Positions 81 through 14,651 of a stretch of DNA of 48,519 nucleotides are shown in pieces. Every line of letters begins with the position of its first letter. The stretch's first letter is position 1. The translations under genes were made by a program, and so were the position numbers. The notes under the pieces were generated by a model that saw only the letters and a program-made list of their open reading frames with translations, did no database searches and was not told the origin of the DNA. Source of the stretch: an uncultured Fibrobacter sp. (GTDB taxonomy: Bacteria > Fibrobacterota > Fibrobacteria > Fibrobacterales > Fibrobacteraceae); assembly GCA_946413655.1 (NCBI GenBank), contig CAMKLO010000019.1, positions 1 to 48,519 on the forward strand, in the 5' to 3' direction.

Positions 81-1265
81 CTACTTTTCTCCTTCCATTT
101 CCAACAAATCGGCCTGCAAGGTGGCATCGTTCGGGTAATATTTTAAAGCGACCTTCAAGAGGCGCACGGCTTCGTCGGTGCGTTTTTGCGCATGGGCATC
201 ATACGCCATATTCTTGAAGCCAAAGACGGCCTCGGCGTTGCCGTTCTTGGCGGCGAGTTCATAAGCGTATTCGGCACGATCATTAAACTTAGCATCGTAA
301 GCGAGGTTGCCCATGAAGATGGCGGCATCCGAAAAATCGGGCTTGATTTGCAAAATGTTGTTTAGAATTTCCATTGCGACATACGGCTTTTTGTCTTCGG
401 CGAGGACGTCAGCAAGTTTATACATAATCTGCACGTCGTCATTTTTTATACTGAGGGCTTCGCGGTAGGCGTTTGCACTTTCTTCAAAGTTTTTGTTCAG
501 GCGGTGGACATCTCCGAGATAAACCAAGAAATCCGTTTCTTCGGGGTGCGCGGCATAGCCTTCGCGGATTACGGCAATGGCACGTTCAAAGTCATTCAAC
601 GCAATGTTCGCTTCGGAAAGCTGATAGACGATGCTGATATCGTTTTTGTCAAGGCGGTAGGCATTTTCGATGGCACGGAGGGCTCCGACTTTGTCGCCTG
701 TTTTGGTGTAGGCTTCACCCAGATAAAGCCAACCGGAAATGTTGTTCGGGTCGAGTTTTAACGCACGGTGATAAACGGCGATGCATTCCGGATATTGTTT
801 CAAGCGGAAATAGACGCTCGCCATGTTGAACAACGCCGGGGCAAAACCGCCATTGGAATAGTCAACGGCTTTGCGGTAGGCGGCAGCCGCTTCGGGATAC
901 TTTTCCATTTGATAATAACTATTCGCGATGTTGAAGCTCACGGCAACAGGATCGGCGCCGCGGTCTTCGGCCTTGCGGTACAAAAGAACAGCCTGCTTGA
1001 ATTTGCCATCGCGATAGAGAGCGTTTGCACGTTCCATCAAGTCAAAAGAGGACTGAGCTGCAATCGCAGGAAGTGCGAGGAAAAGAGAAATAAGTAGAAC
1101 AGACGAGAGACGACAACTGATAAAAGCGAGAGGCGCGACCAACGAAGTTTGGCATGACCGAGCTAAACAGTTGGCACGAAGTGCAAAGACGAGAGACGAG
1201 AGTGAGGTAAAATATAACTCGCTCTGTAACTTTCCATATTCATTTGTAAACATTTTATTTAACAT
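81..1265 (-). CDS. Secreted TPR-repeat protein, last visible gene of the Ton operon
   Basis: The mature part is a run of tetratricopeptide repeats (for example NIANSYYQMEKYPEAAAAYR and LGEAYTKTGDKVGALRAIE) covering almost the whole chain. A hydrophobic stretch, VLLISLFLALPAIAAQ, looks like a signal peptide, so the protein should be periplasmic. TPR proteins regularly close TtpC-type Ton operons and probably scaffold the complex. The start is uncertain. I use the ATG at 1265 (AAAGAGAG upstream), which leaves about 55 residues before the hydrophobic core; other ATGs lie at 1253 and 1352. Those extra residues are encoded by dispersed repeats at 1101-1200, so a repeat insertion seems to have separated the original start from its signal peptide. 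Confidence 0.8.
   Translation of the reverse strand: MLNKMFTNEYGKLQSELYFTSLSSLVFALRANCLARSCQTSLVAPLAFISCRLSSVLLISLFLALPAIAAQSSFDLMERANALYRDGKFKQAVLLYRKAEDRGADPVAVSFNIANSYYQMEKYPEAAAAYRKAVDYSNGGFAPALFNMASVYFRLKQYPECIAVYHRALKLDPNNISGWLYLGEAYTKTGDKVGALRAIENAYRLDKNDISIVYQLSEANIALNDFERAIAVIREGYAAHPEETDFLVYLGDVHRLNKNFEESANAYREALSIKNDDVQIMYKLADVLAEDKKPYVAMEILNNILQIKPDFSDAAIFMGNLAYDAKFNDRAEYAYELAAKNGNAEAVFGFKNMAYDAHAQKRTDEAVRLLKVALKYYPNDATLQADLLEMEGEK
1101..1200 (-). repeat. Family C structured repeat (copy C1) between family B tracts
   Basis: Read on the minus strand, it has hairpin GCAC-TTC-GTGC (1184-1174) and outer stem CAACTG/CAGTTG (1173-1168 with 1119-1114). Between them lie the conserved core GCTCGGTCATG and the inner hairpin CCAAAC/GTTGG (1152-1139). 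AGACGAGAGACGA tracts lie on both sides (1101-1113, 1187-1200). The element falls within the reading frame upstream of the TPR protein signal peptide. Confidence 0.75.
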
Positions 1266-1300
1266 AATACTCTCTTTTGCGCGAAGCGCCATTATAATTC

Positions 1301-1340
1301 TTTCGTCTCTCGTCTGTAGCTCGCTTGCGAGCGTTCTTTG
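1301..1340. repeat. Family B tract with hairpin between tonB and the TPR gene
   Basis: TTTCGTCTCTCGTCTGTAG is followed by the hairpin CTCGC-TTG-CGAG and GTTCTTTG. The same tract plus hairpin (GGGC-TAC-GCCC) occurs at 4890-4931 within the same operon. Confidence 0.7.
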
Positions 1341-1419
1341 CACAAGTGCCAAATGCTAAGCTCAGAAATAGGCTTGCAAGCAATCCTGCATCATTCGCCT
1401 TACGCATTTGTCGTCTAAA

Positions 1420-2064
1420 TCAATCTCTAAATTTCACTTCGAAGGGTTGTTCCATGCCGCAGAAGGCGACTGCCTTGCCGTCTTTTTCGGCGGGGGCAAA
1501 CGTCATGCGGGCGACAGCATCCTTCCCCGCTTGCGCAAGTCCCGAACCCGCCGGAGATTCTTCGATGACCTTGATATCGTAAGCGCGACCGCCCACGTCA
1601 ACGCAAAAGCTAAGGCGCAACAAGGCGTCGATTTCTCGATCGCGAATTTGCGACGGCACTTCAAAATTGGGCATGGAGCGATTTTCTGGTTTTTTATCGA
1701 CATCGCCTTTGCCTACGGACATGGCTCCACCACGAAAATTAGAAACAAGTTCATCACTGATTGCGGCTCCATTGCTGCCGGTAACTGCCCCAAGGTTCAT
1801 CGCAAAACGCGGTCCAGCTTTGGGCGAACGTGAGTTGGACTTTTGACGGTTGGGTTTGCGCGCGGTGTGCTTCTTTTCGATTTTCTTCTCAACCTCCTCA
1901 ATTTTCTTTATCGCGACTTCGGTCTTGACGAATTTACGTTCATGAAAAATTTTGCCATTCAAAAACAAGTTTGCCATGGTCACGGAAAACACGAGCACCA
2001 TGCTCACGAGAATCGCCGCGAGGAGGATTGTAAAACGCTTTAATAATTTCTTAACAAGTTTCAT
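1420..2064 (-). CDS. tonB: TonB-family energy transducer
   Basis: The 214-residue protein has the TonB plan. It has a short cytoplasmic start (MKLVKKLLKRF), one membrane segment (about 12-34), a charged Lys/Glu-rich linker (about 45-80), and a C-terminal domain ending in MEQPFEVKFRD with the typical VDVGGRAYDIKVIEESPAGSGL and AVARMTFAPA segments. It would carry proton-motive energy from ExbB/ExbD to outer-membrane receptors such as the one at 7813-10335. The gap to exbD is 135 bp and holds two dispersed repeats. Two cysteines in the C-terminal domain (FCVDV, AFCGM) could form a disulphide. The family call is firm; the exact substrate system is inferred. Confidence 0.85.
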   Translation of the reverse strand: MKLVKKLLKRFTILLAAILVSMVLVFSVTMANLFLNGKIFHERKFVKTEVAIKKIEEVEKKIEKKHTARKPNRQKSNSRSPKAGPRFAMNLGAVTGSNGAAISDELVSNFRGGAMSVGKGDVDKKPENRSMPNFEVPSQIRDREIDALLRLSFCVDVGGRAYDIKVIEESPAGSGLAQAGKDAVARMTFAPAEKDGKAVAFCGMEQPFEVKFRD

Positions 2065-2199: not shown

Positions 2200-2604
2200 T
2201 TACTCCGCTTGTGCGGCGATGGAGACTTTTTTCACGCCAGCCAAATTGCACATATCAATCACCTGGACAAGAACGCCTGTTTCCGCTTCTTTGTCCGCAA
2301 TCACGACGGCTTCGCGATCAGGCGCTTTCGCCAGCGATTGCTTCAAGATGTCCTGCAAGCTCGCCAAATCCACCTGGCGTTCATTCATGTGGATTGTTCC
2401 TTCACGCGTGATGGCGATGAGCAAGTTTTCCTTTTCTAGCTGGCTTGCCGATTGCGCCTGCGGTTTCGTCACATCGACACCGGTTTCGCGAGTGAACGAT
2501 GATGTCACCACAAAAAAGATAAGGAGGATGAACACGATGTCCATCAGCGGGCCCATTTCGATACCCACGTCTTTCTGTTTTCTTCTCGGTAAGTTAAAGT
2601 CCAT
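2200..2604 (-). CDS. exbD: ExbD/TolR proton-channel subunit
   Basis: This 134-residue protein matches ExbD in size and layout: a short cytoplasmic start, one membrane helix (MDIVFILLIFFVVTSSF, about 21-37) carrying the essential aspartate D22, and a periplasmic domain of about 95 residues. It forms the proton-conducting stator with ExbB and drives TonB. It starts with ATG two bases after the exbB stop, so the two are probably translationally coupled. Confidence 0.93.
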   Translation of the reverse strand: MDFNLPRRKQKDVGIEMGPLMDIVFILLIFFVVTSSFTRETGVDVTKPQAQSASQLEKENLLIAITREGTIHMNERQVDLASLQDILKQSLAKAPDREAVVIADKEAETGVLVQVIDMCNLAGVKKVSIAAQAE

Positions 2605-2606
2605 AT

Positions 2607-3299
2607 TCAGTCCTTAGATTGCGCAGCGAAATAGTTGTCTATCACAGTGGCACCAAGTTCCATTTCCTGTTTCAAATTTTCAATACGCTCGTCTAGGCGC
2701 TGTTTTAAAAGCGTGAGCGGGAACGCAATCAAAAGTCCGCTCTGCGTCGAAATCAACGTCTCCGAAATGCCGTCTGCCATAAGCACCGGGTTCTGGTTAC
2801 CGTACAACGTAATCACTTCAAATGTAGCAACCATGCCCGTCACGGTTCCAAGCAGGCCAAGCAAAGGAGCCGCAGCCGCCATAACCATCACGATGTGATT
2901 TCCTTGTTCCATGTACCGTACACTTTTCATCATGCGCACTTGCATGTAATCGCGAAATTCATTGTAATTCTTTTGGGCGATCTCCATCGCATACGAAAGT
3001 TCTCTCGAAAGGAATCCACCGCGCTTACGGAGCCTCTGGAGCGCCACAACTTCACGACGGTCATCCTCGCAGGATTCGTCGATTTTCGTAGCAAAACCTT
3101 CGCCATTCAAATCCTGTTGCATGCGCTTCACGACTTTATGAATATCCTTTCTGAAAAAATCACCCCCAATACGGAACCAGCTTGCAAAAAGGAAATAGAA
3201 TCCGACAACACCCGCCAAGAGGATGGGGAGCATCACCACGCCACCCGCCTCGTACGTATTCCGCAGGGATTCTATGAATATGTAATGAAAATCAGTCAA
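2607..3299 (-). CDS. exbB: ExbB/TolQ-type proton channel
   Basis: The 230-residue MotA/TolQ/ExbB protein has a first membrane helix near 18-38 and two C-terminal helices. The conserved segment APLLGLLGTVTGMVATFEVI is followed by GISETLISTQSGLLIAFPL. It forms the membrane pentamer around ExbD. The start is a TTG at 3299 preceded by AAGGAAAAAG, which overlaps the end of the upstream TolQ-like gene by 8 bases, a typical coupled arrangement. A second, much larger homologue directly upstream is the mark of TtpC-type Ton systems. Confidence 0.92.
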   Translation of the reverse strand: MTDFHYIFIESLRNTYEAGGVVMLPILLAGVVGFYFLFASWFRIGGDFFRKDIHKVVKRMQQDLNGEGFATKIDESCEDDRREVVALQRLRKRGGFLSRELSYAMEIAQKNYNEFRDYMQVRMMKSVRYMEQGNHIVMVMAAAAPLLGLLGTVTGMVATFEVITLYGNQNPVLMADGISETLISTQSGLLIAFPLTLLKQRLDERIENLKQEMELGATVIDNYFAAQSKD

Positions 3300-4848
3300 C
3301 TTTTTCCTTCCCGAAGACTTTATTCATAAGCGAGGTACTTTGCACGTAAAGTTCACTCGTGATTTTTTCGATTTTTTCACTCAACAGGCCATGTAAAATC
3401 ATCACGGGGATAGCGATGATCAAGCCGGTTTCAGTCGTGACAAGCGCTTCGGAAATACCGCCTGCAAGCACGCGGGCGTCGTTTGTTCCAACTTCGGTAA
3501 TCACGGTAAAGAGTGTGATGATACCCGTCACCGTTCCCAAGAGGCCAAGCAGCGGAGCGATCGTTCCCATTGCAGCTAGAAGGCCCATGCGGCGTTCCAA
3601 TTTCGGTTGCTCACGGAGCAGAGCTTCTTGCAAAGAGCGTTCCGCATTTTCGCGAGTGTCGTTTACCTTATTGAGCACCGCAAAAAGCACCATCGCAAGG
3701 CTTGTCTTTTTATCAAGGCAAAGATTTGCAGCATCTTCATACTTTTTCTCCGCCACAAGTGCATTCATCTTCTTGGTGAAACGGCGACCAAGATGTCCGC
3801 GATAAGTCAACACAATGAATCGCTCAAGGAACAGGAGAAGCGCGATAATCGCCACCAACATAAGTGGATACATCACAATGCCACCCTTCTTGAAGAAAGC
3901 CTGGAATTCTTCGGTCCAAGTGAGTTCTTTAGTATCTGTAATGGAATTCTTAATCGCCTTGTTCTGCAGCACATCCAGAGGAATTGCGACCGTAGCAGAC
4001 TGCGATGCACTTGCCGCAGCGCCGGGCATACTCCCCACTTGATTCACGGCAGCCTTGATATTCGACGCGATTTCCGTCGGTAAATTAGCATTCCATTCAA
4101 AAACTTTTCCTTGCAACGCCCCTGAGCGCAACAACGCCTGTACATCGCCATTATCGCTAGCAACTTCGCCAAGGAATACCGTTCCCAAGCGCAAGCGGTT
4201 TACGTTCACATCCGGGCGGGAACCCACCTGCGAGAGTTCTGCACCATAAAATTGAGTATAAGTTAGTTCATGGCGAGCAAGCAAATCCACCATGTAACCC
4301 TGCACCGCAGCAATCGTATTCGGAACTTTCTTTTCGGCTTCGGCACTGGCCTGCCTCAAGCGCAACAGGCGTTTATTCATACCGACCGGGTAATCGCCTG
4401 CGACATCGCCTAATGTTTTTTCAATCGAAAGTTTCACCTGCGTGTTGAGCGCATCGAATGCAATTTCTTCGCCCTTGGCTTTTTCTTCCACTTCTTCAGT
4501 GACGTTCTTGCTCGCCATCACTTCTTCAGTGACGCGGCCCAAATCCGTCGAAAGCTTGGAGTAACGGCCATCCAGTTCACGCGTAACATTCTGGTGTTCT
4601 TCGGTTAATTGCGATTCGGCATAGCGGTTGCTCCAGTGCTTGGCATCAAGCTTTTCGAGGGAATCCGCTTTTTGCATACGGATGCGCGTGAGCGTTTCGA
4701 CTTCGCGCTGCAAATTGCGCACTTCGACTTGCAACAAGGAATCCTTGATGCGGGCCTCGTCTTCGGCGTTTTTCTTGTCACTCGACCACGGCCATGCAAA
4801 TGCAGAAGAGGCGAGCAACAACACGAGCGCAAAAGCCATTCGACGCAT
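3292..4848 (-). CDS. TtpC-like large MotA/TolQ/ExbB protein
   Basis: With the ATG at 4848 the product has 518 residues: a signal peptide (MRRMAFALVLLLASSAFA), a periplasmic coiled-coil region of about 250 residues, and a TolQ/ExbB module. The module has a helix around GGIVMYPLMLVAIIALLLFL and the motif APLLGLLGTVTGIITLFTVI. In Vibrio and relatives TtpC has this plan and is needed by the TonB2 complex. The reading frame extends upstream to 4941, but those 31 residues are encoded by repeats B and A. The ribosome-binding-like AGGAAC before the ATG comes from the A repeat itself. Confidence 0.87.
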   Translation of the reverse strand: MRRMAFALVLLLASSAFAWPWSSDKKNAEDEARIKDSLLQVEVRNLQREVETLTRIRMQKADSLEKLDAKHWSNRYAESQLTEEHQNVTRELDGRYSKLSTDLGRVTEEVMASKNVTEEVEEKAKGEEIAFDALNTQVKLSIEKTLGDVAGDYPVGMNKRLLRLRQASAEAEKKVPNTIAAVQGYMVDLLARHELTYTQFYGAELSQVGSRPDVNVNRLRLGTVFLGEVASDNGDVQALLRSGALQGKVFEWNANLPTEIASNIKAAVNQVGSMPGAAASASQSATVAIPLDVLQNKAIKNSITDTKELTWTEEFQAFFKKGGIVMYPLMLVAIIALLLFLERFIVLTYRGHLGRRFTKKMNALVAEKKYEDAANLCLDKKTSLAMVLFAVLNKVNDTRENAERSLQEALLREQPKLERRMGLLAAMGTIAPLLGLLGTVTGIITLFTVITEVGTNDARVLAGGISEALVTTETGLIIAIPVMILHGLLSEKIEKITSELYVQSTSLMNKVFGKEKVD

Positions 4849-4849
4849 A

Positions 4850-4931
4850 GATTGCCAAGTTCCTTCGGTCCTCGCAATGACGTTTTCCCTTTCGTCTCTC
4901 GTCTGTAGGGCTACGCCCGTTCTTTCGTCTA
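4850..4931. repeat. Family A and B repeats at the start of the TtpC-like gene
   Basis: Minus-strand order: TTTTAGACGAAAG, hairpin GGGC-GTA-GCCC, CAGACGAGAGACGAAAG (family B, 4931-4890), then CGTCATTGCGAGGACCGAAG continuing to TTGGCAATC (family A, 4883-4850). They fill the whole 89-bp space between the DUF3450 stop and the likely ATG of the next gene. Confidence 0.75.
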
Positions 4932-4937
4932 AAATCA

Positions 4938-5774
4938 TCACTTATCCCCTCCCACCACAGACAAACTTACAGGTAAATTCACAATCTGGGGCGGTTTTTT
5001 CGCCTGCTTCACATCAATGGCAAGCTTCACGGCAGCGCGCTCCTCAAGATTCAACTCTTCATTCCATTCGTAAACAATTTTATCATTTTCAATTTTGCGT
5101 TCCAGACGGCCGTAAGACACGCCATTTTCATCGACATAAACCATCCACTGGTTGCCAATGCGGAGAACCGACGCATTTACGATTTCGCCATTTTTGCGAG
5201 TGAGCGGGCTATTAACTACAGCCACTTCATCACCGAACTTGATTTCTTCGTTCAGCAGAGACTTCAATCGAGAAAAGGCTTCTTCTTCAGTCACGTTGCC
5301 GCTTTCGATTTCACGGGTCAAGGACTTTGCACGGTCCAAGCGCTTGTCGCGTTCCCACGGGAGCGTCTGCGAAATTTGCGTTTCCAACTGCTTGCTGATC
5401 TTTGCAAGTTCCTGGCGCAAGGCCCTGCGTTTTGCCGCCACATTTTCGCTCTTGTTCTTTGCACGGGCCTGCTTGTTGCGTTCTTGCTGGAGGTTCGAAG
5501 CCACCTTGCGAATCTTTACGTTCAAACTATCAATTTCCGAATTGCGGCGTTCCGTGTCAGCCTTGTACCGCTGTTCGAGCGTCTTGTGCCGAGAAGCATC
5601 GGCCCGCAACATCGAATCTGTCGCAGCAATTCTTATATTCAAATTTTTGATTTCAGAATTCAGCTTTTCCTTTTGCATTTTCAAGTCGCGGATTTCGGAA
5701 TCGTAGTCCGCAAAGGCCACTCCCGAAAGCGAGAAAACCAAAAGTACCAAAGGCAATATATTCAATCTTTTCAT
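4938..5774 (-). CDS. DUF3450-type periplasmic coiled-coil protein, first gene of the Ton operon
   Basis: This 278-residue protein has a signal peptide (MKRLNILPLVLLVFSLSGVAFA), a long heptad-rich coiled coil (about 25-130), and a C-terminal domain with VLRIGNQWMVYVDENGVSYG, which resembles the DUF3450 consensus. DUF3450 proteins commonly head operons containing TtpC, ExbB, ExbD, TonB and TPR genes, exactly the order here. The role is unproven but probably structural in the periplasm. GGAAAAGAT precedes the ATG. The shared 28-bp ECF-like promoter lies 40 bases upstream of the start codon. Confidence 0.82.
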   Translation of the reverse strand: MKRLNILPLVLLVFSLSGVAFADYDSEIRDLKMQKEKLNSEIKNLNIRIAATDSMLRADASRHKTLEQRYKADTERRNSEIDSLNVKIRKVASNLQQERNKQARAKNKSENVAAKRRALRQELAKISKQLETQISQTLPWERDKRLDRAKSLTREIESGNVTEEEAFSRLKSLLNEEIKFGDEVAVVNSPLTRKNGEIVNASVLRIGNQWMVYVDENGVSYGRLERKIENDKIVYEWNEELNLEERAAVKLAIDVKQAKKPPQIVNLPVSLSVVGGDK

Positions 5775-5813: not shown

Positions 5814-5841
5814 AACACCTGAACCACTTAAAAATGTCACC
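5814..5841 (-). promoter_or_regulatory. Putative ECF-sigma promoter of the Ton operon
   Basis: Reads GGTGACATTTTT, AAGTGGTTC, AGGTGTT on the minus strand. It matches the motifs at 10363-10390 and 14090-14117 at 18 of 28 positions with identical spacing. It fits a -35 (GTGACA) and -10 (GGTGTT) pair with a spacer of about 16 bases and would give a leader of about 33 bases. Confidence 0.6.
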
Positions 5842-5863
5842 AAGTTTTGAATTTTTCAAAAAT

Positions 5864-7684
5864 TTATTGACACTCCGTTTTTTCATCAACATCCTTGCAC
5901 CAGTACTTACAAATGCTTAAATCCCATGTCAAGGCGACAGACAACTTTCCTTTTTCGCGTTCCACGCCAACCAAACGTTGACTTTCACGACAAACATTCT
6001 CGACTTCACGTTTCAGGATTGTCGATTTCAAGCCTTCAATGTAATATCGGCTTACAAGTGCACTTTTACACTGCGGATAATCCCTCAAATTCCAATCACG
6101 GTCAGCACACCAAGTCCACAGATACACCTTACAATTGGTCTTTTCAGCACCTTCCAAACATTCTTTTTCCAGCGCAGAACAATCTGCAATATGGTTACTT
6201 TCAAAATTACTCGCCACGCAATAGCGTTTTAAACCATCTGCATAGGCATTCGCCTTGTCTTCCGCATTTATCGTATCTGGCAAGAACAGCGACCACTTCG
6301 TCGTATCAAGTTTCATCGCCGCTTTTACGTTGGATGCATAGCAAGCCTTTACATGTCTATTATAAACGGAATCTCTATAAATTTCTGTAGAACGTTCATT
6401 TGCTTCAATCATACTCTTGTCACTCGGACTCCACCAATGCGCATCTTCATCAATCAATTCACTAATCGCTCCAGAACACGCGATATCCTGATAAAGCCGA
6501 CATCCCCGTGAATCCCAGCTATCAGAAAGATCTCCCTCCGTATCTCCACAATTACTCCAAGCTATATGAGAAAAGTTAACACCATCACCACCGACATCAA
6601 TCGTAATCGTCGTCTTCGCCATACCGCTAAACACGCCCATCCCGTTTTCGATGTTCGATTCTGGGATAAAACGAGAATCTGAAACAGACCGTTTAACAGT
6701 CTCTATATAGTCAACGTACGCATCGTCAGTCGAATAAAAATCTACCGAAATACTTCCCACCGGGAGCATCATATTCATCAGGTAAAGCGTGTCAAGAGTC
6801 TTGTTTCCAGCGACTGTACGATTTGATGAAAAACCTAGATTTTGCTGTTTTTCCAACGGATCATGCATAGCAATTCCGCGATAACCAGTTTCATCGGCAT
6901 CGGTCACACCCTTGAACATCTGGTTCATCGTCGTATTTTGCGATTCCCCACCACTTATATCATAATTCATGATCGAAAGAACTCCCCGCACAGTCTTGTC
7001 ATAATCCATAGCAACCTTGACAAACTCCATATCCATCGGATATTCCAAGAAAGTTATCCTAAAATCTGGAATAGGGTACATTCTTTTTGTCGTATCGTTT
7101 CGCGGATTTTCAATCCACTTGTAGCTACCGTCTTGCTGGGGAACATTCAATCCATTGGCTTTTATGGCACTTGGAATTGTCGCTACCGCCTTGAATCTAG
7201 ACTTGGCCTTGTGTCCCGCACTATCCCATTCAAAATAAGCGTTCAACGCATAGGTTTCACCGACAATTCCTTCATAGTAACTTTCATTAAAACAATTCAT
7301 TCGATTATTATAAAGTTTAATCGTAGTATCTTTTTTTTCACTGCGCATTCTATAATAAAACACCCCACTAATTGTCACATAGGCACTGTCGTAAAATGCG
7401 AAGTTTTGAGACGAAGCTTCATCCAGTTCATAAACTTTCGAAAAACAGATGTTCGTTTCGCCTCCAGCAAGAATATAGCCGTACGTATAAATGCCCGCAT
7501 AGACATCGCGCTCTTCGGGATAGTATTCCCACGGCCCATGAAAATCACACGCGGTAAGAATAATAGACGAGAGAATCCAGACGAGAGACGAGAGGAATCG
7601 CCTACAAGATCCATTGGAGATCGCGTCACCATTATCGAGACTCGCAATGACACCAGCATTATTACGTTTAAAAAAATCACTCAT
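5864..7684 (-). CDS. Lipoprotein paired with the TonB-dependent receptor
   Basis: This 606-residue protein has a lipobox (IILTAC, Cys46), so it should be a lipoprotein, probably outer-membrane. The rest has no motif I can name firmly. The start of the mature part (GIYTYGYILAGGETNICFSKVYELD) and the beta-rich first half resemble DUF4249 lipoproteins, which sit beside TonB-dependent receptors in Bacteroidota. The C-terminal 200 residues are cysteine-rich (for example YCVASNFESNHIADCSALEK), suggesting disulphides. It follows the receptor gene by 128 bp of repeats and probably shares its transcript. Residues 12-40, including part of the signal peptide, are encoded by A and B repeats, and no other ATG lies between them. 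Confidence 0.6.
   Translation of the reverse strand: MSDFFKRNNAGVIASLDNGDAISNGSCRRFLSSLVWILSSIILTACDFHGPWEYYPEERDVYAGIYTYGYILAGGETNICFSKVYELDEASSQNFAFYDSAYVTISGVFYYRMRSEKKDTTIKLYNNRMNCFNESYYEGIVGETYALNAYFEWDSAGHKAKSRFKAVATIPSAIKANGLNVPQQDGSYKWIENPRNDTTKRMYPIPDFRITFLEYPMDMEFVKVAMDYDKTVRGVLSIMNYDISGGESQNTTMNQMFKGVTDADETGYRGIAMHDPLEKQQNLGFSSNRTVAGNKTLDTLYLMNMMLPVGSISVDFYSTDDAYVDYIETVKRSVSDSRFIPESNIENGMGVFSGMAKTTITIDVGGDGVNFSHIAWSNCGDTEGDLSDSWDSRGCRLYQDIACSGAISELIDEDAHWWSPSDKSMIEANERSTEIYRDSVYNRHVKACYASNVKAAMKLDTTKWSLFLPDTINAEDKANAYADGLKRYCVASNFESNHIADCSALEKECLEGAEKTNCKVYLWTWCADRDWNLRDYPQCKSALVSRYYIEGLKSTILKREVENVCRESQRLVGVEREKGKLSVALTWDLSICKYWCKDVDEKTECQ
7563..7652. repeat. Family A and B repeats forming the lipoprotein start region
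   Basis: Minus strand: GTGTCATTGCGAGTCTCG continuing to GCGATCTCC (7652-7615), then CTCTCGTCTCTCGTCTGG and CTCTCGTCT (7593-7564). In frame they give VIASLDNGDAIS and LSSLVWILSS, the latter being the signal-peptide core. Confidence 0.7.
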
Positions 7685-7739
7685 AACATATCCTCAAAAA
7701 TTCAACTAAGTTCTAAGCTCTACCAAATAAAACATTACT

Positions 7740-7814
7740 GGATCCTTCGACTACGTCCTTGCGGACTTCGCTCAGGATGACACTCTCTCGTCTTTCGTCT
7801 CTCGTCTTTCGTCT
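7740..7814. repeat. Family A and B repeats directly after the receptor stop codon
   Basis: Plus strand: GGATCCTTCGACTACGTCC continuing to CGCTCAGGATGACAC (7740-7783), then CTCTCGTCTTTCGTCT with a second CTCGTCTTTCGTCT (7784-7814). The B tract contains the TAG stop codon of the receptor on the other strand. Confidence 0.75.
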
Positions 7815-10335
7815 AGAAATAGTATTCATAATTCAGCATAATCGGTAAAAAGGGGAACTGAGAAATTTCTGTTTTCTTCGGAGGATTCTTGCGAGTATCA
7901 TAGAAAGTAAAGAACATGTTGTCGTGATTCGTCAAGTTGATAATCGTCCAGCTAAAGTTCCATTTGCCTTCGCGGCCAAAGTCAATAGCTTTCAAGTCAA
8001 TTCTAAAGTAGTCCGTTTGGCGACCGGCATTGCGGCTTCCCGGAAGCACAACGATATCATCTGAATACTTCTGCGTTCCAATCTCTTGTTGCAAATAATA
8101 TCCTTTGTATTCACTGATCGGCATGCCCGACGAATACTTGAGCGCCAAGGACGAGCGGAAATAACGGCCTTTTTTCTTATGCTTCCAAAGAGCGTCTTCG
8201 TCGCCTTTCCAGTTGATACCTAAATCCAGTTTTAATGCGTACGGCTGATGCCAACTCGGGAAATACGGCTTGCTACCGTCATTGGAGCGGGCCACGCTTA
8301 TACTTTGGCTCCAGTTGATTCCACCGAACCACCAGCCTTTATCTTTTCGCAATGAAAGTTCATAACCAAAGGAATATCCATCGGCCGTTCCGAAATTATC
8401 TGCAAGCACAAGTTCCTTCGAAGACGATTCATCGCTACTATCCGTTTTCATCGCGAATGTATTCAAATTGCTCTGCGTCTTATAATAAACGCCGGCAGTA
8501 AAATCATAGCCTTCAAAGAAATCGCGCTGGCTGTACTCCGCCGCAAACAGCCACGAAGATGCAGGCTTGACATGCCTACCATCCGTCGTTGTCGTCGCCG
8601 GATAATAAAATTCATTCAACGTTTCCTGGTCTGTATAGACAATCGAATTCATGTACTGCAAATAGTAACCACCATAAAGTTCCAGCGTTTTCAAATCGTC
8701 GAGATTCATCGTCACTGAAGCTCGCGGCTCTACACCAAAATGTTGCGATGCTGTTTGGTAATTGAAACGCAAACCACATTGCAGCAAGAAATCCGGTGAA
8801 ACTTTCCACGCGTCTTGCACATAAGCCACATGGTGAAATGTTTTTTCGATATCCGCCACACTGATTGACGCCATTTTTTCCTCATAACGTTCGTAAACGT
8901 ATTCCAGTTCATAGCCCAACGTCACCGTGTGATTGTCGATACCGCGATAATTCAGCCACTGTTTACCTGCAAACGAATGAAGGAGCATTTCTATCGACAT
9001 GAGGTCACTGATTTTCATGGTCTGATAAAACTTGCTATAAGCAAATGTCGCATTGTAATCCCAATCGTTATTGATGCGATGGTAAATTCCGAGCGGAATT
9101 GCGATATTTCCCCAATCCATGTAAAGCGGGTCAAATTCTAGTTTATCCTTACCAATGTAATAACTGAACTTGAAACGAGTATCTTTCGAGAAATCGTACA
9201 TAAACGTTCCCTGCAAATCCGTAAACTCGTAATCCAGATCCAAATCTAAAAGACCTATCGCATTGCACAAGTCGAGAACATAGCCGATGTAAGTCGTACG
9301 GCCAGCAAGCACCCAGCGGGCCGGGCCCTTGTGGCCTTCCGTATGGAGTTGTGCTGCGAACGTGCTAATTTTTACGCTCGACTTGCTGAACCATTCTTCC
9401 ACAGAATCCTGACCGCCCGCACGTCCATCCATCTTGAGCACGGAACTCAAGCGGTTGCCGTACTGCGCCGGGAATCCGCTCTTGTAGAACTGTACATCGT
9501 CAATGCCTTCGACAAGAAACGTGCTGAACAAGCCAAAGAAATGCACCGGCGAATAGACGACCGCGTTATCGAACAGAAACAAGTTCTGGTCAGAGGCTCC
9601 ACCGCGCACGTAAATCTTGGAACTGAAATCAGAACTGGCGACAACGCCCGGAAGCGCCTGGATGCTCTTGATGACATCCGCTTCGGCAAGACCCGGCATG
9701 CGCTTGATGGACTTCGCGGAGACAACAGATTCACCCGGTTTGCGCTTGGGACGGCGACGCAACTGCACCACGACTTTCTTCAGTTCAGTCACCTTTGAGT
9801 TCGGGCCACTCGCAGCGAGAAGTTTTTCGACATCGACATCAGAAGAGCTATCGGAGATTGCCGCGCCTTCAGCCCGCAATGACGAAGAATTGACAGACGT
9901 TGCGGTGGAATGTGAATCGACTGAGGCAACGTCATGGCGGACTTGATCCGCCATCTTTGCATGAGATTCAGGCTCGGAGGCCAGAATGACGTTCGCGTGT
10001 AATCCATCATCCGCAAACTTTTCACCCAACGTCATGCTGAACGTGCTATCGCTTCCCAAATAAACCAGTTCATAACATTTTTCCTTTTCCGCGCCAGCCG
10101 TATCGGAATTCGTCACGCAAACATTCCAAAGGGTATCTTCCGGGAGAACTACGCTAAATGGCGTACCCACAGTTGTCTGCAACGCCTCTCCCGTTTCGAG
10201 AATTTCGACATTCAGCTTTTCGCCAGCCTCAAACGAGTCATCTTGAACAATTCCATTGAAGATAATACTTTCGCGAGCTGCGGCAAACGCAACCACAAAA
10301 GAAACAAGAACCACTATTCTCAACATAAAACTCAT
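7813..10335 (-). CDS. TonB-dependent outer-membrane receptor
   Basis: The 840-residue protein has a signal peptide (residues 1-20), a small beta domain (about 22-115), a linker, a plug domain (about 196-310, with KRMPGLAEADVIKSIQALPG and KIYVRGGASDQNLFLFDN), and a long beta-barrel ending in the aromatic LNYEYYF. It should import a ligand across the outer membrane using the TonB complex encoded downstream. The ligand is unknown. Two family A repeats are translated in frame within the linker (residues about 115-136 and 151-162). The shared 28-bp ECF-like motif ends 28 bases before the ATG, and GGGGTAAG could serve as ribosome-binding site. Confidence 0.9.
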   Translation of the reverse strand: MSFMLRIVVLVSFVVAFAAARESIIFNGIVQDDSFEAGEKLNVEILETGEALQTTVGTPFSVVLPEDTLWNVCVTNSDTAGAEKEKCYELVYLGSDSTFSMTLGEKFADDGLHANVILASEPESHAKMADQVRHDVASVDSHSTATSVNSSSLRAEGAAISDSSSDVDVEKLLAASGPNSKVTELKKVVVQLRRRPKRKPGESVVSAKSIKRMPGLAEADVIKSIQALPGVVASSDFSSKIYVRGGASDQNLFLFDNAVVYSPVHFFGLFSTFLVEGIDDVQFYKSGFPAQYGNRLSSVLKMDGRAGGQDSVEEWFSKSSVKISTFAAQLHTEGHKGPARWVLAGRTTYIGYVLDLCNAIGLLDLDLDYEFTDLQGTFMYDFSKDTRFKFSYYIGKDKLEFDPLYMDWGNIAIPLGIYHRINNDWDYNATFAYSKFYQTMKISDLMSIEMLLHSFAGKQWLNYRGIDNHTVTLGYELEYVYERYEEKMASISVADIEKTFHHVAYVQDAWKVSPDFLLQCGLRFNYQTASQHFGVEPRASVTMNLDDLKTLELYGGYYLQYMNSIVYTDQETLNEFYYPATTTTDGRHVKPASSWLFAAEYSQRDFFEGYDFTAGVYYKTQSNLNTFAMKTDSSDESSSKELVLADNFGTADGYSFGYELSLRKDKGWWFGGINWSQSISVARSNDGSKPYFPSWHQPYALKLDLGINWKGDEDALWKHKKKGRYFRSSLALKYSSGMPISEYKGYYLQQEIGTQKYSDDIVVLPGSRNAGRQTDYFRIDLKAIDFGREGKWNFSWTIINLTNHDNMFFTFYDTRKNPPKKTEISQFPFLPIMLNYEYYF
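9853..9885 (-). repeat. Family A repeat inside the receptor gene
   Basis: Minus strand: TCGTCATTGCGGGCTGAAGG continuing to CGCGGCAATCTCC, the same form as the intergenic copies. It encodes SSLRAEGAAIS in the linker before the plug. Confidence 0.75.
9928..9993 (-). repeat. 66-bp palindromic repeat inside the receptor gene
   Basis: The ends are perfect inverted repeats, AACGTCAT and ATGACGTT, and an inner palindrome GATGGCGGATC/GATCCGCCATC-type arm lies near 9935-9956. It is exactly in frame and encodes NVILASEPESHAKMADQV and four further residues, interrupting nothing. Confidence 0.75.
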
Positions 10336-10362
10336 TGCAATTTCAATTTCTTACCCCAATGG

Positions 10363-10390
10363 AACACCTTAAGGTACAAAAAGTGTTACC
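10363..10390 (-). promoter_or_regulatory. Putative ECF-sigma promoter of the receptor operon
   Basis: Minus strand: GGTAACACTTTTT, GTACCTTA, AGGTGTT. It matches the sigma-operon copy at 23 of 28 positions and starts its leader about 20 bases before the receptor ATG. Confidence 0.65.
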
Positions 10391-10424
10391 ACATAATTGA
10401 AAATTTAATTTTTTTTGTTTAAAA

Positions 10425-10452
10425 AAAGGAGATCCCCGAACAAGTCGGGGAT
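10425..10452 (-). terminator. Terminator of the sigma/caspase operon
   Basis: On the minus strand, stem ATCCCCGA-CTTGT-TCGGGGAT is followed by CTCC and seven T, 53-80 bases after the caspase-gene stop. The stem is itself a family A-like repeat ending in ATGAC, so a repeat appears to serve as terminator. Confidence 0.65.
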
Positions 10453-10504
10453 GACAACTTAATCTTAAGATGACCCAAAACTTTTATAGTCTCTTGTCTA
10501 AGAA

Positions 10505-12775
10505 CTAGAACCGTCCAAAAGTCAAGCCCGCATAAAATCCTGGCCACCAGCGAGCATTGTGTTTTTTTATATGGAGATCATCGTGGTAATCGCCGAGCGG
10601 CTTGAGCAATAACTTATTCAAATACCCCTCGCTCGTCACGTTCAGCGTTCCGCCAACAGAGAGACCAAAACCTGGGAGCACTTGATAGACATAGCCCACG
10701 CGGCCACGGTGATGATACCCGAACTTGCCATCATCATCAAGACGGAACTTGTCATAGACATTGAAGAACGTGTATTCGAGTTCAAAGTGGCTTCCGTACT
10801 TTCCGAACTGCGTTCCGATACCGAAGCCGTGTTCATAATGCTTTTCAAATTCGCTAAAGCCAGAACCTTTTTTGAAGAAAGCTGCCCAATCCAATACGGT
10901 ATAGAAGTAAGCCGTACCCAAATGAACGGAACCGCCAAGCGCGCCCATTTCATTCAAATAAGGGGTAACGCTCCACACACCGTTCCCGACGATGCTGATG
11001 ATACCGACCGGAGACTTTTCGCAGTGAGCACAAACGTTGACAATGCCCCATTGGCGACCTTTTTCTTCTGTCGCATAGTTGACAATGCCCACTTGGACTT
11101 TTTCATTCACATGCGTAGCGTTCACACCTGCCGACACCTGAATTCTAGAATTTGTGGCATAGTTAACACCCGCAACGACCTGCGTTTTTGCAGCAAGCGC
11201 TGCATTCACGCCAGCAGTCACCTGCAAATCAGTCGCCTTGGCATAATTGACGCCCGCAGAGACCTGCACACCCTCAAGCGTATCGACCGCGACGTTAACG
11301 ATACCGATTTGCGCTCCCGAAGACTTGTCTTTTGTCAAGTTCAAAGCAGAACTGACCTGAACACCATCTAAAGAGCCCGCATAGCTCACCACAGAGGATA
11401 ATTGAGCCCCTTCAAAATGCTCTTTAGCCACATTCACGATAGTCGCCGCCTGCAAGCCGTGCATTTCTTTTTTTGCAATATTCGCAATCAAGCTAACCTG
11501 CGAACCCAACATGTAATCATTTGTTTGTGCCACAAGCAATCCCAACTGCAAGCCCTTACGCGGCGATGTATCCTTATCGATAATATTAAATGTTGTACGA
11601 AATTTTCCGTTATGATCCAAAGAATCCAACGAACAAGCAACATGGCCGTCGCTGGAGCAGTTTCTATTGTCACCTATTTCTCCGCGAAGCACCGTCTGTT
11701 CCGCAACGACGCTCTTGAAACTGCCAAGCGTAACCTTCTCGCGTTTGCCATTCGAAAGCACAACGGATGTGCCCATGTAGTCTATATCTTGCTGGAGATT
11801 CACCGCATAACGCCCCGCCGGGAGTCCGAGACTCATCGCATGACCGCGCTTTTTGTTGAGTTCCGCCACAAGTTCACCATTCTCGTCGCGGATGTACAAA
11901 CGTCCATATACACTTTCGTCCAAATCAAGGCCAGCGCTAGTCGCACGCAAGTCCGTCATCACAACGTCACCCGTTCCAGCAAGATTCATATCGCGGCTCG
12001 GATGCTGTGCGCCGCCCAGCGTCGTTTCCGTTTTCTGCAGAGTTTCGTTGAACGCAAACTGGTACGCTTCGGACAAAGTCACTTTACCATCACTGCTCAA
12101 GTCGCCTGCGCCACGCAGCCCGCTCACTAGCGAATGCGTAAAGAAAGAACCCTTGAGCTTGTCGCTTTCCTGGCTCGATTCGTCTTGCGTGCTGCTCGTG
12201 ATAAAAGCGTACCCCTTCATGTCGCTGCTCTGATCGACCATGAACGCAGGCACTGCCTTACCGCCCTTCACGCGGGTAATGGCGCCAGAACCGCAAGCGT
12301 CGATTACGGCAATTTTCACGTCGGCACTGAGCGCATCAATGCGATTGCGCAAGTCCTTCCACGTATAAGTTTCTTCGCCCAAGCGGAGTCCCTTTTCATC
12401 GGCATGTCCGCTGTAATAGACCAGCACTTCGTTGCGGCCATCAGACGCACCATTCTCAAGAATCTTGGAATCGAGATTCGAAAATTCCTTCTGCAGCGCC
12501 GCCACGGAAGGTTCACGCACGAGAATCACATTCTGCGGTTGCACTCCGCCCATTTCCTTGAGCACTTTGGCAAAAGAACGAGCATCGCTTTCGGCGTAGC
12601 GCAACATCGGACGCCCCGAACCGCCGTTATTCGCGCTCACGGCAACCACGTAACGATTGATACGGCCCGATTCCGTCGCCGCATTGGCATTGGCAGCCAA
12701 AAGCAACAGCACCAAGATAAATGCAAAAGACAAACCAGACAATACACCAAAAGTTTTATTCGAAATTATAAACAT
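10505..12775 (-). CDS. Caspase-fold peptidase fused to surface repeats and a barrel-like domain
   Basis: The 756-residue protein starts with a hydrophobic signal segment (8-32). A caspase-like (C14) domain follows at about 40-260, with the catalytic pair His124 (VYYSGHAD) and Cys161 (VIDACGSG) both present. After a beta linker (about 285-400), residues about 410-610 hold at least ten repeats of the form G-x-Q-x-(A/G)-x-(V/L)-N-x-A, like LA_2272-type surface repeats. The last 145 residues alternate aromatic and polar strands (for example GTAYFYTVLDWAAFF) and end in TFGRF, as in an outer-membrane barrel. I infer a protease held at the outer membrane; target and trigger are unknown. Its ATG overlaps the anti-sigma stop (TAATG). 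Confidence 0.82.
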   Translation of the reverse strand: MFIISNKTFGVLSGLSFAFILVLLLLAANANAATESGRINRYVVAVSANNGGSGRPMLRYAESDARSFAKVLKEMGGVQPQNVILVREPSVAALQKEFSNLDSKILENGASDGRNEVLVYYSGHADEKGLRLGEETYTWKDLRNRIDALSADVKIAVIDACGSGAITRVKGGKAVPAFMVDQSSDMKGYAFITSSTQDESSQESDKLKGSFFTHSLVSGLRGAGDLSSDGKVTLSEAYQFAFNETLQKTETTLGGAQHPSRDMNLAGTGDVVMTDLRATSAGLDLDESVYGRLYIRDENGELVAELNKKRGHAMSLGLPAGRYAVNLQQDIDYMGTSVVLSNGKREKVTLGSFKSVVAEQTVLRGEIGDNRNCSSDGHVACSLDSLDHNGKFRTTFNIIDKDTSPRKGLQLGLLVAQTNDYMLGSQVSLIANIAKKEMHGLQAATIVNVAKEHFEGAQLSSVVSYAGSLDGVQVSSALNLTKDKSSGAQIGIVNVAVDTLEGVQVSAGVNYAKATDLQVTAGVNAALAAKTQVVAGVNYATNSRIQVSAGVNATHVNEKVQVGIVNYATEEKGRQWGIVNVCAHCEKSPVGIISIVGNGVWSVTPYLNEMGALGGSVHLGTAYFYTVLDWAAFFKKGSGFSEFEKHYEHGFGIGTQFGKYGSHFELEYTFFNVYDKFRLDDDGKFGYHHRGRVGYVYQVLPGFGLSVGGTLNVTSEGYLNKLLLKPLGDYHDDLHIKKHNARWWPGFYAGLTFGRF

Positions 12776-13581
12776 TACTTGCCCACCTTCTTGAGAGTAA
12801 AACCGATTACCTTAACGTCGCTTCTCTTAAGCAACTGATCGACATCTTTTTCTTCGACCGCGAATTCCTTCGGAGAGGTCACGAAGAAGAACTTTTCGAA
12901 ATAAGGAGCATCATCCAACTTGTATGCAAACGGGAGCGAATTCATCTTGCCCGGAGCAAGTTCGACCGCCTTTTCGCCATCGCCCATGTGAAGCGTCAAA
13001 GCGCCATTGCCGTCCATGCTAAAAAGGAGACCATAGCATTTTTCCGGGACGGCATAGCGCAATTGAATTTCATCGCCTTCGCGGACTTCATCCAAGTCCT
13101 GCAACTGCACGATTCCCGCCTCCGTCTTTTTCCAGACTTCCATGCGGGCATCGAGGCCCTTGATTCGCGTATCCGACGGCGTTTCGGCAAGTGCAACCTG
13201 CGTATTTTGAGCATTGCGAGCCTGCGCCACATCGCCACCCGCCACATTCCCGCCTGCAACGACGGTTTCGCGCTGCGTCATGAGAGCGACCAAGGCAACG
13301 GCCAACACAAGCACCGCCGCCGATGCAAACTTCAAGAGCCTAAAGCTCGATGCGACTTTTTTGGCTTCGGCGGCGTCCGCAATATCCTTCGCTTTGGCGA
13401 TGCGGTCGGCAACAGCCTCGAACGGCAACTTGTTCAAAATCGCCTTGTTGTCTTCACGGAGCAATTTTATGCGCTGGGCAAGCAGCGCATCAGTCGCTTC
13501 GAGTTCGCGAATCTCGCGCATTTCACTTTCGGGCAAATCGCCCGTCAGGAATCTTTCCAATTTCCAATCGGGAATCATCAC
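12775..13581 (-). CDS. Transmembrane anti-sigma factor with a DUF4384-like sensor domain
   Basis: This 268-residue protein has a helical cytoplasmic part (1-80), one membrane helix (about 83-101, FASAAVLVLAVALVALM), a low-complexity spacer, and a periplasmic beta domain (about 150-265). The beta domain holds EGDEIQLRYAVPEKCYGLLF and FFFVTSPKEFAVEE, resembling DUF4384. Its position after an ECF sigma gene with an ATGA overlap, and its membrane layout, support an anti-sigma role. DUF4384 is often found with caspase-like peptidases, which fits the next gene. I see no zinc-binding HxxxCxxC motif, so it is not of the classical ZAS type. Confidence 0.75.
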   Translation of the reverse strand: MMIPDWKLERFLTGDLPESEMREIRELEATDALLAQRIKLLREDNKAILNKLPFEAVADRIAKAKDIADAAEAKKVASSFRLLKFASAAVLVLAVALVALMTQRETVVAGGNVAGGDVAQARNAQNTQVALAETPSDTRIKGLDARMEVWKKTEAGIVQLQDLDEVREGDEIQLRYAVPEKCYGLLFSMDGNGALTLHMGDGEKAVELAPGKMNSLPFAYKLDDAPYFEKFFFVTSPKEFAVEEKDVDQLLKRSDVKVIGFTLKKVGK

Positions 13582-14081
13582 TTTACCTCCAGAGTTTTAA
13601 CTTTGGCCTGTAACCCACGCAAACGCTTGCGCACACCGCTCACCGAAAGCCCGACTTCACGGGCTGTCTCTTCAAGAGTCATGCCGTCAACATAATGCAG
13701 CACTGCAATCGTACGGCTAGATTCCGGTTCCTTCGAAAAAAGACGGGCAAGCATATTCTTCGTTTCGTAATCATCATGCTCGTCTTCGGCACAAGCGATA
13801 GTCAAAAGCAAATTCGAAGAATCCACGTCCAGGCCGCGGCGGCGCTTGTCACGGATACGGTTCAGGCACAGCCTCGTCGCCGTATTCCACAAAAGGCTGC
13901 TGGGCGAGGCCATATCCAGACGTTCCGACGCAGAATAAATCCGCACGAAAACGTCCTGCATAAGGTCGCTTGCTTCCGCATCGTCACGAAGTAGCTGCAA
14001 GCAACGCCTATAGACCATCGGCGCATACGTCTCGTAAATCTTCGCAAATCCTGCTTTTTTTAGGGTTTCTGGGCTTTTCAC
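13578..14081 (-). CDS. ECF-type RNA polymerase sigma factor
   Basis: The 167-residue protein has sigma region 2 (about 12-80, YAPMVYRRCLQLLRDDAEAS, DLMQDVFVRIYSA) and region 4 (about 110-163, LHYVDGMTLEETAREVGLSV, SGVRKRLRGL) with no region 3, the ECF layout. It should direct RNA polymerase to the 28-bp motif found here three times, including in front of itself. The start is GTG at 14081, only 8 bases from the motif end, which would make the mRNA nearly leaderless. No better start exists before region 2. The gene overlaps the anti-sigma gene by 4 bases. Confidence 0.9.
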   Translation of the reverse strand: MKSPETLKKAGFAKIYETYAPMVYRRCLQLLRDDAEASDLMQDVFVRIYSASERLDMASPSSLLWNTATRLCLNRIRDKRRRGLDVDSSNLLLTIACAEDEHDDYETKNMLARLFSKEPESSRTIAVLHYVDGMTLEETAREVGLSVSGVRKRLRGLQAKVKTLEVK

Positions 14082-14089
14082 GCTTATGT

Positions 14090-14117
14090 AACACCTGAGA
14101 GAATAAAAAGTGTTACC
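14090..14117 (-). promoter_or_regulatory. Putative autoregulated ECF promoter of the sigma operon
   Basis: Minus strand: GGTAACACTTTTT, ATTCTCTC, AGGTGTT. The motif also forms an inverted repeat (GTAACAC with GTGTTAC), so a dimeric regulator is an alternative reading. Confidence 0.65.
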
Positions 14118-14215: not shown

Positions 14216-14276
14216 AAACTTAAATTCTTTCATTTTGAGGCTAATGGCATCAATTTTTAAAACATTTCTGAGGTTT

Positions 14277-14475
14277 GTACCTATAAATTTATCGTTTCAT
14301 GCGCTTTTATAGGTACGAAACAGGTCGTTTTCTATTCAAATCAGGCAAATTCTATTGAGACTATACCTATAAAAAGCGCAAAAATTCGTTATTATAGGTA
14401 ATTCCATGCTTAATTTATACATAAAAACAGGAAAACGTACCGATAAAAAGCTGATTTTTCGGCTTTTATAGGTAC
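14277..14475. repeat. Three large palindromes with GTACCTATAAAA arms
   Basis: Arms GTACCTATAAA/TTTTATAGGTAC at 14277-14316; TACCTATAA/TTATAGGTA at 14364-14400; GTACCGATAAAAAGC/GCTTTTATAGGTAC at 14437-14474. Each is 37-40 bp with an unrelated AT-rich centre. They could be operators, RNA hairpins in the pepT leader, or a local repeat family. The rest of the gap to pepT is AT-rich and holds no gene that I can see. Confidence 0.7.
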
Positions 14476-14651
14476 GGAATAAAAAAAATGCATAGCACAG
14501 TTCAAACATCATCCGAGCTTCGCATTGTTTGCATGAATTTGTGGAAAAATGTCGTCTGAAATGCCTCCATTTCTCATCAAAAAAAGATAAATTATATATG
14601 TGTTAAGGGAAACCGTTATTTTATTAACTTTTTTGGGGGAGCTAGCAGATT

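Follow-up and report, generated by a model that had tools for sequence, protein, structure and literature searches.

A promoter-like motif shared by an extracytoplasmic function sigma factor operon, a TonB-dependent receptor and a Ton motor in Fibrobacter

Gene content of the locus

The stretch of DNA analysed here, hereafter the window, is a contig of 48,519 nucleotides (nt; CAMKLO010000019.1) from an uncultured Fibrobacter sp. whose genome is incomplete (3.70 Mb, 184 contigs, 88% complete). Its minus strand carries an operon for an extracytoplasmic function (ECF) sigma factor, an anti-sigma-like protein and a caspase-family protein, followed by a TonB-dependent receptor unit and a Ton motor operon, and each of these units is preceded by the same promoter-like motif of 28 bp. 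GGTRACAYTTTT-N9-AGGTGTT occurs without mismatch at 14117-14090, 10390-10363 and 5841-5814, and a scan of the window allowing up to three mismatches returns three matches as compared to 0.01 expected from shuffled sequences. An initial annotation of this DNA had reported the three copies, with 18 positions common to all and 23 shared by the best two, and had placed each just upstream of the first gene of a unit, all of which our scan bears out; these first genes encode the sigma factor, the TonB-dependent receptor and the DUF3450 protein of the motor, respectively. The gap between motif and gene is 8 nt for the sigma factor, 27 nt for the receptor and 39 nt for the DUF3450 gene. The features are as follows.

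14090..14117, minus strand: promoter-like motif copy 1 (GGTAACACTTTTTATTCTCTCAGGTGTT), 5' of the sigma/anti-sigma/caspase operon, 0 mismatches
13578..14081, minus strand: ECF sigma factor, 167 amino acids, regions 2 and 4 (Pfam Sigma70_r2 1.8e-14, Sigma70_r4_2 5.3e-7)
12775..13581, minus strand: membrane anti-sigma-like protein, 268 amino acids, its gene overlapping the sigma gene by 4 nt
10505..12775, minus strand: caspase-family (Peptidase_C14) protein, 756 amino acids (Pfam C14 1.3e-11; NCBIfam LA_2272 repeat)
10432..10452, minus strand: terminator-like hairpin of 8 pairs with a T-rich tail, separating the caspase unit from the receptor unit
10363..10390, minus strand: promoter-like motif copy 2, 5' of the TonB-dependent receptor, exact match
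7813..10335, minus strand: TonB-dependent receptor, 840 amino acids, plug domain (Pfam Plug 2.5e-7)
5864..7684, minus strand: DUF4249-type protein, predicted to be the receptor's lid partner, with an ILTAC that looks like a lipobox by eye (PF14054 7.8e-5)
5814..5841, minus strand: promoter-like motif copy 3, 5' of the Ton motor operon, exact match
4938..5774, minus strand: DUF3450 protein, first gene of the motor operon (Pfam 2.9e-22)
3292..4941, minus strand: long ExbB/TolQ-type protein, 549 amino acids as called (Pfam MotA_ExbB 2.2e-31)
2607..3299, minus strand: second ExbB (Pfam MotA_ExbB 2.4e-24)
2200..2604, minus strand: ExbD (Pfam ExbD 2.9e-30)
1420..2064, minus strand: TonB (Pfam TonB_C 9.7e-6)
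81..1352, minus strand: TPR protein, last gene of the motor operon (Pfam TPR families)

Scanning the whole genome with up to three mismatches yields seven sites. Five of these have zero or one mismatch: the window's three plus single sites on contigs 58 and 52, which are the only additions as long as no more than two mismatches are allowed. The two sites with three mismatches are at background level since the reversed pattern gives six sites. The sites on contigs 58 and 52 lie 49 and 37 nt, respectively, 5' of flavodoxin/flavin mononucleotide (FMN)-reductase-type genes, which are targets beyond those named in the initial annotation. Terminator-like hairpins are not enriched over the region as a whole (14 versus 18.0 in shuffles), and extragenic repeats and palindromes of the type TACCTATAAAAA...TTATTATAGGTA are present 5' of the sigma operon at 14274-14479.

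Distribution and targets of the motif in the genus

A search of 80 genomes of the genus for GGTRACAYTTTT-N10-GGTGTT with at most one mismatch found 218 sites in 76 of them, including all 40 good-quality genomes, as compared to no site for the reversed pattern in the same genomes. Target placement was made around the matches listed, in 44 of the 80 genomes, and covers 135 distinct sites with at most two mismatches, those too near the end of a stretch or with identical flanks having been left out. Only genes downstream on the motif strand were considered; genes were called from the first possible start, and called starts upstream of the motif (negative gaps) were taken as over-called. One receptor (L105) carries two sites and was counted twice, and two sites were assigned by reading: L137, where the sigma gene was missed by the open reading frame rule, and L121 (G087 contig 110), where the motif precedes a small membrane protein gene and then, as second gene 565 nt on, the gene flavA for a flavoprotein of 404 amino acids. 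One of six gene families lies downstream of 129 of the 135 placed sites, namely the sigma factor (33), the receptor (34), the first motor gene (34), the two flavoproteins (12 each) and DUF4249 genes with a site of their own (4). Random occurrence in coding regions, which the initial annotation had named as the outcome that would speak against its reading, is not what either the comparison with the reversed pattern or the placement reveals. Inspection of both strands by eye revealed no target at the six leftover sites (L075, L106, L116, L127, L133 and L134). G092 has the genes of the sigma trio, the receptor, the DUF4249 protein and the motor together in a single stretch of ~15 kb (L132).

Some of the leftover sites have distinctive surroundings. 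At L075 (G003 contig 2, 282343-282370), a motor-type promoter plus its leader stands 5' of a small YbjQ-like gene (identified by eye), a possible case of promoter capture or duplication. L133 and L134 (G092 and G023) have the variant GGTGGCATTTTT...AGGTGTT 5' of the gene for a membrane protein that is LiaF-like by eye.

Sigma orthologues (E<=1e-30) were found in 73 of the 80 genus genomes, and all 73 have a site with at most one mismatch as compared to three of the seven genomes lacking the sigma factor (Fisher p 2.2e-5, not corrected for kinship). Of these seven, G017 and G100 retain sites at targets in assemblies of only 62% and 71% completeness, respectively, and the sole site of this quality in G089 (L127) precedes no known target. 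Four genomes without the sigma factor, G040 and G090 of the genus and G049 and G050 of another family, possess the receptor (51-70% identical) and motor genes, and the stretches read contain no site with up to three mismatches. G052, which has no close sigma relative, has a three-mismatch site at a receptor homologue.

Promoter architecture and predicted transcription start

Two boxes ~15 nt apart fit an ECF promoter. In the genus sites, the second box extends to GGTGTTnnA, with this A (position 30) conserved in all 129 target sites, while the first base of AGGTGTT is variable (A in 43 of 68 sites) and the sequence 5' of GGTRACAYTTTT is A/T-rich. The sigma start codon lies 8 nt past the motif, at positions 36-38, in all 33 genus sites at this gene (20 ATG and 13 GTG), and position 36, eight bases past GGTGTT, is a purine in 93 of the 96 non-sigma sites. 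Because the start codon sits at this fixed distance, the sigma mRNA is predicted to be leaderless or nearly so, which in the window would put the start at:

14081..14081, minus strand: predicted leaderless transcription start, coinciding with the first base of the GTG start codon of the sigma gene

Purines are also frequent at positions 34 and 38, so that a start two bases away is conceivable. ECF sigma factors commonly, although not universally, activate their own promoter. AGGTG was considered as a common ribosome-binding site, which is possible for the sigma gene only, and was ruled out since the other targets in the window's genome are 27-49 nt away.

Seven of 18 receptor leaders inspected by eye start with a hairpin, close to the predicted 5' end, and continue with TATTTTT. 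Two of these were folded (L077 ~14586-14616 and L102 ~14779-14808) and form 10 pairs at -12.9 and -15.9 kcal/mol (z -3.4 and -3.9), respectively, which suggests a terminator-like or stabilising function; the window's own receptor leader is without a 5' hairpin.

Sigma, anti-sigma and caspase proteins

The sigma factor is a short protein with regions 2 and 4 only, both scoring above the Pfam cut-off, as in ECF (group IV) members, and its closest solved relative is SigW (E 1.4e-12). The structure model of the adjoining anti-sigma-like protein comprises N-terminal helices (residues 5-73), a transmembrane helix (~82-100), a linker (103-139) with a predicted local distance difference test (pLDDT) score <50 and a confident beta domain (146-265); hydropathy identifies a hydrophobic segment in 33 of 33 proteins. 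This is, by prediction, the layout of transmembrane anti-sigma factors (helical N-terminus, one membrane helix and extracytoplasmic domain), and from it and the 4-nt gene overlap we infer that the protein binds and inhibits its partner sigma factor. The beta domain is weakly DUF4384-like (match at E<=0.01 in 14 of 33 relatives), a fold search gave no match with E <1e-3, and an alignment search returned only 'hypothetical protein' names among the best 120 of 954 entries, with an organism given for two, Fibrobacter in both cases. FecR was not matched by the window's protein (E<=1) or by any of the 33 relatives (E<=0.01). The linker is variable except at its end, R139-I-K141-G142, where K141 is retained in 33 of 33 and R139 and G142 each in 32 of 33 proteins, making R-x-K-G at the end of the disordered linker a candidate cut site.

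The caspase-family protein has a signal-peptide-like start (by eye), a caspase domain, LA_2272-type repeats and a weakly predicted C-terminal outer-membrane barrel. H124, D159 and C161 are invariant (32 of 32), the first and last forming the His-Cys dyad of Peptidase C14. An Asp two residues before the catalytic Cys, such as D159, fits a basic S1 pocket, as would be expected of a caspase that cuts after basic residues (metacaspase/orthocaspase type). The top matches in a fold search are the barrels of OprF, NspA and OmpW, with caspase-7 and a metacaspase lower, all at E >1e-3. Outer-membrane barrels often end in Phe, and a C-terminal Phe is present in all 19 genus members of the alignment; together with the model this points weakly to a protein tethered in the outer membrane by its C-terminal barrel, and the surface location given to the caspase in the initial annotation is one possibility.

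Receptor, Ton motor and flavoproteins

The receptor has no match to the STN signalling domain at E<=1, and no solved relatives were found by sequence. Its gene is followed by that of the DUF4249-type protein, whose match of 22.8 bits is below the Pfam cut-off of 28.5. ExbB, ExbD and TonB are encoded together, all with Pfam matches above cut-off, and constitute a Ton system. The flavoproteins of contigs 58 and 52 (406 and 195 amino acids) match the NADPH-dependent FMN reductase/flavodoxin families (E 2.6e-9 and 2.9e-17, respectively), each with one weak match among solved structures by sequence. Their Cys patterns as read from the sequence, CX2CX2CX7C in the longer and CX2CX2CX5C in the shorter protein, presumably resemble the cluster motif of iron-sulfur flavoproteins. 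The best 120 of 744 homologues of FlavB have names no more specific than flavodoxin family protein or WrbA.

In F. succinogenes S85 on cellulose, the FSU_2400-2403 cluster is reported to be up and the ExbB FSU_0435 slightly lower (-1.23) (PMC6851124, PMC4619616). FSU_0435 resembles the motor described here in its size, in having a signal peptide and in how far it lies from the TPR gene FSU_0431, and would be a component of this motor in S85. Cellodextrin import was rejected as the job of the receptor, since on these reports another cluster, FSU_2400-2403, responds to cellulose and FSU_0435 is slightly lower.

Conservation outside the genus

We sampled 20 sigma homologues (44-54% identical) from 12 genomes; seven belong to the window's own class and the other 13 to a single family in another class. 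Nineteen have an anti-sigma-like gene next to them and 15 have a caspase gene; of the five lacking a caspase neighbour, three are near the end of a contig. A site with at most two mismatches is present at seven homologues, and another seven have one with three to five mismatches located 8-9 nt before a start codon. With up to one mismatch allowed, 87 genomes of the phylum outside the genus contain 27 sites as compared to five for the control, and 19 of the 27 come from other genera in the family to which Fibrobacter belongs. Receptor homologues outside the genus have the motif (1-2 mismatches) in G062 and G054, and the motif is found at receptor-like or ExbB genes in G079 and G069.

At L171 (G072 contig 152), a sigma/anti-sigma pair has an altered second box (TCAACTGTT), the same altered box stands before the next gene, and two looser box variants are nearby, which may represent co-divergence of sigma factor and promoter.

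Proposed regulation and alternative explanations

The same promoter-like motif precedes all units, so that the sigma operon, receptor, motor and two flavoproteins very probably constitute one regulon of this ECF sigma factor, as the initial annotation had proposed for the units of the window. The receptor would thereby be tied to its own energy supply, another point of that annotation in agreement with our data, as the Ton motor operon carries the same motif here and at the 34 motor sites of the genus. Taken as a whole, an ECF promoter motif defining a regulon, caspase-triggered release and leaderless feedback is the best explanation and one that we regard as likely. According to this model, the N-terminal helices of the one-pass anti-sigma protein would keep the sigma factor at the inner membrane until an envelope signal allows the co-encoded caspase, predicted to be anchored in the outer membrane, to cut the anti-sigma protein at R-x-K-G, where its periplasmic linker ends. 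Intramembrane proteolysis of the ordinary kind would follow and free the sigma factor. Its own operon would then be transcribed into a nearly leaderless mRNA, a positive feedback, and the sigma factor would also switch on the receptor, its DUF4249 lid, the dedicated ExbB/ExbD/TonB motor and the two FMN-reductase-type flavoproteins, the latter processing the imported cargo. Observed in the sequences are the motif, its positions and conservation, the catalytic residues of the caspase and the invariant linker residues; binding of the motif by the sigma factor, the leaderless start, the location and cut of the caspase and the cargo belong to the prediction.

Two alternatives concern the motif itself. 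It might be the operator of a dimeric repressor or activator and not a sigma promoter, given an AACAC...GTGTT inverted repeat, a symmetry that is visible in the sites and is expanded to GTAACAC...GTGTTAC in many sigma-operon copies. Its conservation is one-sided, however: GGTGTTnnA is invariant and the T-run almost invariant, but the mirror positions (3 and 7) differ between sites; a two-way operator would be expected in both orientations, whereas 129 of 135 sites have their target downstream on the motif strand; and the 40 nt 5' of the motif have A/T-rich conservation only, with no second promoter box. We consider such an operator very improbable. Scarcely less improbable is that another ECF sigma factor of the genome reads the promoter and that the adjacent one is merely a target. 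Two-mismatch sites are indeed kept in genomes without a detectable sigma orthologue, at the receptor in G089 (99% complete) and G041 and at the motor in G031, which fits this alternative and weakens strict sigma-motif co-loss as proof. The adjacent sigma factor is favoured over such a rival by the fixed motif distance at its gene (33 of 33), by sites in 73 of 73 sigma-bearing genus genomes versus three of seven lacking it, and by a motif-like site kept at 14 of 20 homologues of 44-54% identity, observations that likewise support the single regulon inferred initially.

The surroundings of two of these sites are also of interest. In G041 (L226), a SIR2-like gene (by eye) is directly 5' of the receptor, and in L072 and L084 the same gene precedes a flavoprotein-sigma block, as if the block had been deleted in G041 with the receptor keeping its two-mismatch site. 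G089 (L246) has the same two-mismatch receptor site as G041, likewise without the sigma factor.

The trigger is the more tentative part of our model. Cutting of the anti-sigma linker by the caspase was judged the most likely trigger step based on analogy with orthocaspases, reported to cut after basic residues (PMC6426788), with an orthocaspase described as inactivating an antitoxin, most likely at basic stretches (PMC7935541), and with the caspase-like Csx29 (a TPR-CHAT protease), described as cutting the anti-sigma-like Csx30 and so relieving an ECF sigma factor (PMC10028731); taken by itself, we consider this step possible but somewhat doubtful. Alternatively, the caspase may be an output of the same regulon, acting in the envelope as a protease to trim proteins that are imported or at the surface, with release of the anti-sigma protein left to ordinary site-1 and site-2 proteases or to ligand sensing by its own beta domain. 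We regard this as a serious possibility, though short of an even chance, and trigger and output as close to even with each other. The caspase gene is in the sigma operon and its product would rise with the regulon, and the strongly conserved beta domain is a possible sensor in its own right; on the other hand, the trio persists in other families where the receptor has no motif, which fits a signalling module, and R-x-K-G is retained at the end of an otherwise variable stretch. More doubtful again is the proposal in its full form, in which a bacterial caspase tethered in the outer membrane would serve as site-1 protease in an envelope sigma pathway, cutting the linker of the inner-membrane anti-sigma protein at the invariant R-x-K-G and thereby gating a receptor, its private motor and cargo-processing flavoproteins, with a leaderless sigma transcript as the self-amplifying switch and a sigma/anti-sigma/caspase core retained in much of the phylum.

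A number of further observations weigh against the favoured model of an ECF promoter with caspase-triggered release. The R-x-K-G sequence may be structural, the caspase model is weak (pLDDT 73, with much of the domain past C161 <50) and has no match in the PDB with E <1e-3, and the C-terminal Phe occurs in just two of 13 non-genus caspases. Outside the genus, six of the 20 sigma homologues have no motif-like site, and sites with five mismatches are near the chance minimum of shuffled stretches (4-6). Nine of the 13 homologues of the one family have the spacing of 8-9 nt, and none of the seven from the window's own class does; within that class, the leaderless prediction is therefore confined to the genus. 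At up to two mismatches, 31 genomes outside the genus have 44 sites versus 36 for the reversed control, and single distant sites carry little weight because these counts are close. Finally, the trio is present in G057-G060 and G063, where the best receptor homologue lacks the motif (at least six mismatches), as does the best receptor homologue of G051, G053, G055, G056 and G061, which makes ten genomes of the class outside the genus. Since the trio persists where the receptor motif does not, sigma factor, anti-sigma protein and caspase look like a stable core and the receptor like a changing client, judging by these sequence comparisons.

Relation to known systems and implications

Cell-surface signalling of the FecI-FecR-FecA type combines an ECF sigma factor, a membrane regulator and a TonB-type receptor. 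The present set shares this composition with it and with PUMA3/VreI, for which VreI is reported to induce exbB2 and exbD2 also (PMC2729926). Unlike such systems, the receptor has no STN domain, the anti-sigma protein no FecR-type match, and a caspase is the co-encoded partner. The adjacency of the receptor gene and the putative DUF4249 gene recalls the TonB transporter of BT2172/BT2173 type with its DUF4249 lid, whose description in the relevant passages mentions no sigma factor or motor, whereas receptor and motor share a promoter motif here (PMC11003636). Similar in logic is the CASP system of Csx29, Csx30 and CASP-sigma, likewise with a caspase-like protease, an inhibitor of an ECF sigma factor and sigma motifs in its own locus; it is described as RNA-guided and CRISPR-linked, as opposed to the Peptidase_C14 protein with signal-peptide-like start, the membrane-spanning anti-sigma protein and the proposed cutting of the present system (PMC10028731). 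Operons of metacaspase and sigma-70 genes have been noted in Myxococcus, Anaeromyxobacter, Haliangium, Sorangium, Ralstonia and Fibrobacter (Asplund-Samuelsson et al., 2012; PMC3501461). The pairing is the same as here, and the passages of that study on these operons give no anti-sigma factor, promoter motif, regulon, receptor, Ton motor or mechanism. We found no description of the regulon in open-licence PMC papers, a scope that excludes subscription papers and preprints. Sigma-metacaspase operons have been known since 2012, and the regulon, promoter and wiring look new.

If correct, the model would give bacterial caspases a concrete job outside defence and cell death, namely freeing an ECF sigma factor for nutrient import. 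It would also provide a promoter code, found in 76 of the 80 genus genomes searched, in which the fixed 8-nt spacing predicts a leaderless, self-activating sigma transcript, and would tie a receptor to a motor of its own in a genus that is central to cellulose degradation in the rumen.

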